This document shows, one piece after another, positions 39,679-42,224 of a stretch of 64,000 bases of DNA. The first letter of the stretch is position 1. Each line of letters begins with the position of its first letter. The notes beneath the pieces are model-generated. The model had not been told where the DNA came from. It worked only from the letters and a program-made list of their open reading frames with translations, and did not search any database. Made by a program: the position numbers and the translations under genes. The stretch is from Grifola frondosa (lineage: Eukaryota > Basidiomycota > Agaricomycetes > Polyporales > Grifolaceae), in NCBI GenBank assembly GCA_001683735.1, contig LUGG01000041.1, positions 124,001 through 188,000 of the forward strand. The letters are read 5' to 3'.

Positions 39679-40261
39679 GGCGTGTAGTAGAAAGAGTGGA
39701 TTTTAGTAAAACCTGTTAATCCAGAGTGAGAGTGTTGTCGACAAGTAATAAAATAAAGATCAGACGCACGCAACCTTGGTAGACAACTATCAGAACCGTC
39801 CTCAAGGTTCAAGAGAAAACTCCTAGTTGTTGTTTGAGTGCATCAGCGTTGTTATAATGCATCTTTTATGTTCTGCCTAGACTTTGTTGTCGCAGGCTTG
39901 GCATCACAAACGAGTCCCGAATGATCCCGTTCAACATGCGGAATCCTCTTGTCGGCACGCTAACCCCGTCATGTATGGTCAAGGATGCATCCTAGTAGGT
40001 CCTAGCGTGTGCTTAGCAGGAAGACGCAAGGAAGACGTATCGACGTCGCATACGAACACTATTACCAATTACGGCAGTAATTACCACTTGCATCAAAATT
40101 TGCCGTCAATTAATTAAGCTTTAGGCTGTTTGATAGCACCAATTATAGCTCAGTAAATTATCGTAAAACACATAGGTAAATCTGGGCACCGTGAGGACAT
40201 CCTGTAAAATTACCGGTAAATTTGAGGGCATAATGAAATTCGCTAGAAGGCAGATTAGACG
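39679..40261. other. AT-rich intergenic flank of the transposon
   Basis: This is the upstream region of the secreted-protein gene. It ends with the left 9-bp target duplication GATTAGACG (40253-40261). No gene was seen. Confidence 0.5.
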
Positions 40262-40262
40262 T

Positions 40263-40385
40263 AGTCTCGTAACCAGACGGCATAGGGTGTGAGCGTGCCA
40301 CCGGGATCACGTGCTCCCCCTTCGGAGTTCAAACCGGAGAGCGAAAAACAGCAGCACGGACACACCCTATACCGTCTGGTGAATT
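40263..40385 (+). repeat. Hairpin unit 1 of the transposon
   Basis: The left stem 40272-40291 and right stem 40361-40380 are reverse complements at 19 of 20 positions (ACCAGACGG(C/T)ATAGGGTGTG). The loop carries a conserved core with CGAAAAACA and CAGCAC. Confidence 0.85.
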
Positions 40386-40510
40386 AGTCTCGGAACCAGC
40401 CGTTCTCTCCCTTCGGAACCCCAATCGGACATCGAAAAACACCAGCACAGAGAGGGAGAGAACGTCTGGTGAATTTGGTATAGGCGGGGGGGGGGATGGT
40501 CACATTCACG
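40386..40510 (+). repeat. Hairpin unit 2 of the transposon
   Basis: Same orientation as unit 1, offset by 123 bp. Stems 40395-40411 and 40454-40470 match at 16 of 17 (ACCAG(C/A)CGTTCTCTCCC). The loop core is CGGACATCGAAAAACACCAG. It is followed by GAATTTGGTATAG and a G10 tract at 40486-40495. Confidence 0.85.
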
Positions 40511-40880
40511 TGCCTTAAGACGCGCTCTACGCGTCGCGTCGCGCACGGCCGCATGTCATTTTGATGCGTGTACTCTCCGAATTGGCTCTTAATATTAATG
40601 AAAAAAAATTTCCTAACCATATTTTGTCATGTATATTGGTCTGAGACAGATTCTGCCTCATCTCGTCATAATTTGTTATCATCCAGTACTTACTCTCATA
40701 CATTGCTAGATGCTGACTAAGCGTTGGTAGTACGGAGACCGGGGCATTTTGATATGTTTAACAGCGTCGGACAGACCTCTTGGCTCTTTCAACTCATAGG
40801 GTGATCACTCGGTTGAGTTTTGTGGTATTTGGCCGTGCATACATAGCCTATCTCGAGCGTCGTTGAGAGCGATCTGACGC

Positions 40881-41095
40881 GGTCGGTCACAAAGCGTGAC
40901 CATCCCCCCCGCCTATACAAATCACCAGACTTATAGGTGTAGGTGTGCTGGGGTTTTCGATGTCCGATTGGTTCTGCGCCGGACTCTTCCGGTGGCGCAG
41001 CCGCCGTGCACAACTACCACTATAACGGCTGGTTACGAGACTACTGGTGAATTTGGTATAGAGGGGGGGGGGGTTCATCACGCTTGTGACCTGTC
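40881..41095. repeat. Palindromic hairpin unit 3 of the transposon
   Basis: The stem around 40924-40948 pairs with about 41012-41036 (ACCAGAC-TTATAGGTG versus ACCAGCCGTTATAGTGG). Outside it both flanks repeat in inverted order: a C7 or G11 tract (40904-40910, 41063-41073), then GGTCACAA and GACGCG. The whole unit is therefore one large imperfect palindrome. Confidence 0.75.
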
Positions 41096-41654
41096 GCGTC
41101 AAGCGCGCATTATCTCTCTCAACATCAAGCGCATTTCCTCCGTTCCTCTCGCAAAACTCCACTGAAAATATGCCCAAAAATATATATTATTTATGTACTA
41201 GCATGCCCGAAACACTCCCGCGTCGTTTTCGCATCCTGGACGGCTTCAGCGCAGTATGTCTCCCGCCTGCCTTGCTGCTCACGGCGGCGCAGCGCCGCCG
41301 ACAAACGCAGCTCGAGCGCGACCTTTGCGGAGCTCCCACTCATTCCTCGACTTCTCAATCTCGACCCCGATGGCATGCACATCACCCCTGCTGACTGGGA
41401 GTGCAGAGGTTGCAAGAATGAATATAAGTTGTTTGTGAAACAGCCCAGAATTGAATGCTACCTTAAAGCAAGCAAGAAACCTCACAGAAGTATAAACAGT
41501 TGTGCCAGAGAAGAAAGGGGATTTACAGAGTGTCGTAGCAGTGCTAATTTTGATAAGATATATATACCAAAAGGGGCGGGAACAAGCGGGAACACAGCGG
41601 AAACGCAAGATTGCAGCGCGTAAACACTCGCGTCAGACGCGTCAAAGAGCACGT

Positions 41655-41776
41655 GAATGTGACAACCCCCCCCCCTCTATACCAAATTCACCAGACGTTC
41701 TACCCCGGACCCGTGCTGATGTTTTTCGCTCTCCGATTGGGGGTCCGATAGGGTAGAACGGCTGGTTCCGAGACTA
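41655..41776 (-). repeat. Hairpin unit 4 of the transposon (inverted)
   Basis: Reverse orientation. Stems 41690-41705 and 41751-41766 match at 15 of 16 (ACCAG(A/C)CGTTCTACCC). The loop in reverse complement has CCAATCGGAGAGCGAAAAAC. It is flanked by a C10 tract at 41666-41675. Confidence 0.85.
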
Positions 41777-41832
41777 GATTAGACGCCCAATGGACAGAAA
41801 TGCGTTCGTGACACGTTGTCACATCACGCAGA

Positions 41833-42224
41833 ATGTCCTTCCTCCGTGCACTCCGACGTCCACCACGGCTTGAAATCCGTTGCTTGCCTCGGCGATGCTA
41901 CGCTACGGAGGCGAAGGCTGCTGAGGAGCCTGAGGGTACGTGCTGACAGATTTCTGTTAATTTATTGATCTTATACTTGTCTCTCTAGTCGTGGTCGCAA
42001 AATCTTCATGCCCGGAGAACACCATCCTAACGGGCGTGAACTACCTTAAGGGCCAGCAGCCTGTGCTAGCCCTTGCAGACGATCAGTACCCGCCATGGCT
42101 ATGGACGCTGCTCCAGCCAAAGGTACTTGTTGACGACGGCCCTGGGGGAAAGGCGGAGAAGTATAGGCTGAGAAAGGCCAATAGGCAACGGATACGGGAG
42201 CAGAATTTCATGAAGACGCAGTAG
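41833..42224 (+). CDS. Mitochondrial large-subunit ribosomal protein mL54
   Basis: Two exons, 41833-41935 and 41989-42224 (112 aa), with a 53-nt intron GTACGT...CTCTAG. The Arg-rich presequence (MSFLRALRRPPRLEIRCLPR) ends near RRCYATEA. The mature part SSCPENTILTGVNYLKGQQP, DDQYPPWLWTLLQPK and KAEKYRLRKANRQRIREQN fits the mL54 (yeast Mrpl37) family. Its promoter is cut by the transposon: only 47 bp lie between the right target duplication and the ATG. Confidence 0.9.

Follow-up and report, generated by a model that had tools for sequence, protein, structure and literature searches.

Two nested elements with hairpin-bearing ends

The window, a 64,000-nt stretch of the Grifola frondosa genome, contains two short DNA elements, one inserted into the other (Table 1). 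Identity to a reference copy of the same element is 94.6% for the window copy of the outer element A, with B left out, and 94.2% for that of B. B was inserted exactly at the 3′ foot of the hairpin that forms the long (left) end of A. At each element end the order runs from terminal repeat to hairpin unit to G tract. The initial annotation had described four hairpin units; all four were located, with feet ACCAG[A/C]CG...CTGGT and a loop core CGGA..CGAAAA, their inner stems resemble those originally given, and a hairpin fold was obtained for each. Their treatment as copies of one thing did not survive, as units 1 and 4 are the ends of A and units 2 and 3 the ends of B, and the four stems group by end, the short-end pair (TTCTACCC, TTCTCTCCC) being related to each other and the remaining two belonging to long ends. 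Both arms were also said to agree in every unit; this needs correcting for unit 3, which pairs imperfectly in the window because of point changes and a bulge.

A two-exon gene lies at 41833-42224, its ATG 56 bp downstream of element A, and its second exon matches mitochondrial ribosomal protein L37 (PF08561, E = 7.7e-18). Insertion of A may affect the promoter of this L37-like gene.

Table 1. Elements, target duplications, hairpin units and G tracts at the locus (window coordinates)
Feature	Positions	Strand	Remarks
Left target duplication of A	40253..40261	+	GATTAGACG
Outer non-autonomous element A	40262..41776	+	Interrupted by B; termini TAGTCTCG...CGAGACTA; 9-bp duplication
Unit 1, A long-end hairpin	40272..40380	+	Stem GG[C/T]ATAGGGTGTG
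Left target duplication of B	40376..40384	+	CTGGTGAAT
Inner non-autonomous element B	40385..41043	-	Long end on right; 9-bp duplication
Unit 2, B short-end hairpin	40395..40470	+	Stem TTCTCTCCC
G tract adjoining B short end	40486..40495	+	
G tract adjoining B long end	40904..40910	-	C on + strand
Unit 3, B long-end hairpin	40924..41033	-	Stem TTATAG.TGGTAG, imperfect in window copy
Right target duplication of B	41044..41052	+	CTGGTGAAT
G tract adjoining A long end	41063..41073	+	Separated from A hairpin by B
G tract adjoining A short end	41666..41675	-	C on + strand
Unit 4, A short-end hairpin	41690..41766	-	Stem TTCTACCC
Right target duplication of A	41777..41785	+	GATTAGACG

Families, autonomous copies and more distant relatives

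Motif searches covered an assembly of 39.06 Mb in 64 contigs, and loci were fetched only from the matches listed. The border motif beside the hairpin (≤3 mismatches) occurred at 149 places compared to 23 for a reversed control, and the terminus TAGTCTCGAAACCAG (≤1 mismatch) at 140 places compared to 3 for its control; at least 85 hairpin units, above chance, were present across the 41 sequences scanned. Joining each forward end to the downstream reverse end with the best-matching flank gave 46 facing end pairs in the loci fetched from the matches listed, of which 44 had exact 9-bp target duplications (the exceptions being L043 2899-3564 and L044 2060-2726). Every one of the 46 pairs joined a long end to a short end, position 9 being T or A in the former and G in the latter. 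The ends belong to A, B and C, which are close families with a common layout. Because each end of one family has nearly one stem, the stem differences stressed in the initial annotation lie between ends and between families, not among copies of a single unit. Its premise that ordinary transposon inverted repeats are alike in all copies holds here inside each family, and the one fixed stem genome-wide that it named as contrary evidence is found inside families and not between them.

The B and C reference elements are internal-deletion forms of two 6-kb copies. Like MITEs, they are short, gene-less and numerous, with ends in common with an autonomous element, and one A copy of 2330 bp retains gene parts. 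Several C-type long ends (L014, L085, L086, L092 and L094) carry left- and right-arm variants in mixed combinations, as if C subtypes had recombined within the hairpin. Separately, one A long-end copy (L080 / L023, C48:24597-24704) ends inside the right hairpin arm, with unrelated sequence beyond.

In the 6-kb autonomous copies a helicase is read from the long end and a DUF6589 protein from the short end. The helicase matched PF00270 and PF00271, and its best NCBIfam match was recQ_fam (E = 2.9e-27 for one open piece, under the model's whole-protein cut-off); a convergent helicase match lies nearby at 10 of 14 DUF6589 loci. For the transposase candidate Pfam gives solely DUF6589, a name not found in the literature searched, and structure modelling predicts a DDE (RNase H-like) transposase fold nearest to that of Hermes. 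Foldseek with the predicted fold returned no match at E ≤ 0.001, and a single-protein query of viral contigs found no relative. A DUF6589 profile run against PDB sequences gave a single weak match, which was irrelevant and was discarded. DUF6589 is thereby connected with a mobile element whose ends are mapped and with a predicted DDE transposase fold, and A and B are two nested non-autonomous members of a helicase/DUF6589 DNA transposon group, most likely AcademH. In one region (G000:C21:134560-143019), a pair of DUF6589 loci that are identical, ends included, stand inverted about 8.5 kb apart, a spacing too small for two full 6-kb elements.

The two 6-kb copies supplied the spacing by which short-end positions of other DUF6589 loci were predicted, and four 341-nt segments were taken there. 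That of L105 folded into a long hairpin (score 51, compared to a maximum of 32 in 25 shuffles), the L106 hairpin scored 32 against a shuffle maximum of 34, which is not significant by this crude score, and at the predicted short ends of L107 and L108 no hairpin stood out. The L105 and L106 hairpins have feet CCAG/CTGG and stems unlike those of families A-C, and DNA searches found ends matching them as inverted pairs. Family D (C31) has the 9-bp duplication CTTGGATAG and family E (at C2, about 5.7 kb long) has ACCTCAGTC; the termini are CAGGCTCC and CAGCCTCC. Since these ends come with 9-bp duplications, near-end hairpins reach beyond the A-B-C group.

Stem pairing, constraint and target sites

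Covariation was counted on eight hand-chosen representatives (A long, B long, three C long and three short), which are related types and not independent events. Trimmed units, with 16 stem pairs and 127 cells, were used because MAFFT on full units misaligned the left arms of the short ends. Across the eight types, 92.9% of the 127 cells were paired, compared to 77.6% in shuffles and 34-46% when slid; 18 cells had changed on both sides and the covariation score was 0.353 versus 0.088, neither being reached in 500 shuffles. One of the measures is weak: six stem pairs had changed on both sides, and 30 of 500 shuffles reached that number. Inner left arms preferred their own right arm in six of eight types, the B-short and C-short left arms pairing slightly better with the A-short right arm.

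Within families the units are constrained. In hand-picked lists of 23 B and 11 A copies, change per site per copy was 0.009-0.012 in units compared to 0.048-0.049 in interiors, and the units therefore matter in cis even in gene-less copies. Loops and inserts are conserved equally to stems inside families. The inner stem need not pair exactly: inner B-stem variants recur in 4-5 copies without compensating change, and the 9-bp flanks match on either side of a C copy whose arms are half mismatched (ends L085 and L096). The selection on folded structure that had been proposed for these units gains support from stems that vary among families yet pair, and from units changing 4-5x less than interiors, with a competing reading of the unit as a duplex site still standing beside it.

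Two other accounts of the hairpins fare worse. The initial annotation had also offered arm-to-arm copying, by which template switching or foldback repair would rewrite one arm from the other and palindromes would persist without selection. New stems do occur in both arms, and the small change that distinguishes A-short from B-short is found in each arm alike. Such copying is nonetheless disfavored and highly improbable, as 84 of 109 units, and four of eight types, have the same C-T mismatch at pair 6 — hard to square with copying, and fitting selection for a particular imperfect helix — while bulges common to several copies are inherited, half-mismatched arms persist in a C copy with a 9-bp duplication, and loops are conserved that copying would not protect. 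Alternatively, the units might act as RNA hairpins in the 5′ leaders of the transcripts of the two genes (helicase and DUF6589), or give rise to small RNAs; in the 6-kb copies they immediately precede each gene and point inward at both ends, which would suit such a role. Against this, gene-less copies keep their units constrained, none of the 16 stem pairs shows a one-sided standard change of the G-C to G-U type, and the window contains no Rfam covariance-model match at gathering score; we consider an RNA role improbable.

Insertions into other elements were counted from 122 ends with an outer flank. Fifteen flanks matched a reference element; one 17-nt match (L072) was dropped, and the remaining 14 flanks lie inside another element and were read as nine insertion events. 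All nine fall at the feet of long-end hairpins, eight at the 3′ foot, where the duplication is centred 0 to 6 nt inward of the hairpin end, and the ninth close to the 5′ foot. Both ends are in view for five events, four of which have exact duplications (the exception being L044). For approximately 60 insertions, chance would yield far less than one nested event (~60 long ends × 25 bp in 39 Mb). A CTGGTGA neighborhood is common to eight of the nine sites, and the attraction of integration to hairpin feet could reflect these shared letters, an end-bound transposase or structure. In L078, a C-family long-end hairpin (1679-1813) has other element ends at both feet, representing two insertions.

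Target sites in general show a weak, symmetric A/T preference at one to two bases beyond the 9-bp duplication (36/43 at position 11 and 30/43 at position -1). By eye the targets had seemed palindromic; this idea was dropped because a column-pair test of 43 sites showed no preference and folding of 39 non-nested sites against shuffles showed no hairpin tendency (mean z 0.03).

Proposed folded ends and comparison with known systems

These observations can be drawn together in a model of an AcademH-like transposon with folded ends, which we favor tentatively, at somewhat short of an even chance. The units would act as folded DNA, either as a cruciform or as a single-stranded hairpin. The element's own helicase would open or remodel the ends, upon which the palindrome would fold, and the DDE transposase would read foot and loop more than stem letters; the folded structure would also attract integration. 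Stems would drift because mainly pairing matters, giving each family its own stem, and the enzyme that moves the elements may recognize DNA ends by shape as well as by sequence. The model is supported by covariation across eight types, arm preference, the low rate of change in units, the nine of nine nested insertions at feet, and the family D and E hairpins with other stems, and Helraiser offers, by analogy, the nearest tested precedent in the available part of its description (PMC4778049). Counting against it are the uncompensated inner-stem variants in B copies and the half-mismatched C copies, the lack of a hairpin at two of four predicted DUF6589 ends together with an L106 score not above the best shuffle, the ordinary targets without hairpin tendency, and the Foldseek search without a match.

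Loops and inserts as conserved as stems also weigh against folding, since binding to a duplex would give the same. Here the unit would be an extended double-stranded site whose foot motifs and loop core are bound linearly by a multimeric transposase, folding being irrelevant. The sequence conservation of foot and loop core and the tolerance of inner-stem mismatches agree with such a site, as does CTGGTGA at eight of nine nested sites, letters that a sequence-specific protein could seek. Linear binding gives no reason, however, for stems to stay self-complementary after two-sided change between families, or for families D and E to have hairpins with other stems, and we judge it a possible but rather unlikely account. 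Returning to the folded-end model, its broadest form would describe a group of DDE cut-and-paste transposons whose ends are recognized as folded DNA, with fixed foot and loop, interchangeable stems, extrusion or remodelling by the element's own RecQ-type helicase, and feet serving as preferred targets. A group of this kind we regard as doubtful, with a probability well below one half.

Among the closest known systems is the Academ superfamily of DNA transposons. AcademH, whose defining paper is reportedly Kojima 2020, resembles the present group in its helicase gene and transposase candidate, fungal host, inverted terminal repeats and 9-bp duplication, and differs in that the ends here carry hairpin units with family-specific paired stems. 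In the available parts of the sources, AcademH has 9- or 10-bp duplications linked to its helicase (PMC10045372), fungal Academ copies encode RecQ-family domains (PMC6416283), and AcademH helicases are mentioned in fungi (PMC10799480). We use the label AcademH-like because a superfamily II helicase lies beside the transposase candidate, duplications are 9 bp in 44 of 46 pairs and in families D and E, and inverted terminal repeats are present (TAGTCTCG...CGAGACTA plus inner repeats); the predicted DDE-like fold of DUF6589 is compatible with homology to Academ transposases. In the literature collection searched, we found no report of hairpin ends like these in Academ or helicase transposons. If folded-end recognition were true, it would account for the helicase of AcademH-type elements, an enzyme linked so far, in the available text of PMC10045372, to duplication length alone; structure-conserved ends give it a testable job.

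Helitrons are similar in having a hairpin near an end and a helicase in the element. According to the available part of the Helraiser study, a swapped hairpin stem left about 90% activity and an altered loop behaved like deletion of the hairpin, the loop thus outweighing stem sequence (PMC4778049). Helitrons have a single hairpin, and no inverted repeats or target duplications as far as the available source describes (PMC4522978), whereas the present elements have a hairpin at both ends, inverted repeats and a 9-bp duplication, and they were not assigned to this group. Other DDE groups were considered as well. The hAT target duplication is 8 bp, and hAT membership was rejected on the 9-bp duplications in 44 of 46 end pairs. 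Duplication length, a RecQ-type helicase and hairpin ends set the present elements apart from both hAT and P-element transposases, and a fold in common with these is not membership. MULE membership was likewise rejected, as the MULE transposase domain PF10551 had no match at E ≤ 0.01 in eight exon pieces, in which a weak match could escape.

Shape-based end recognition is known for integrons: integron attC sites, like the ends of IS200/IS605, are read in folded single-stranded form, the stems being variable and the extra-helical or loop bases fixed. These systems are bacterial and use other enzymes (a tyrosine recombinase and HUH, respectively), and the likeness is one of analogy only. If the folded-end model is correct, recognition by shape would extend from Helitrons to a DDE transposon with inverted repeats.
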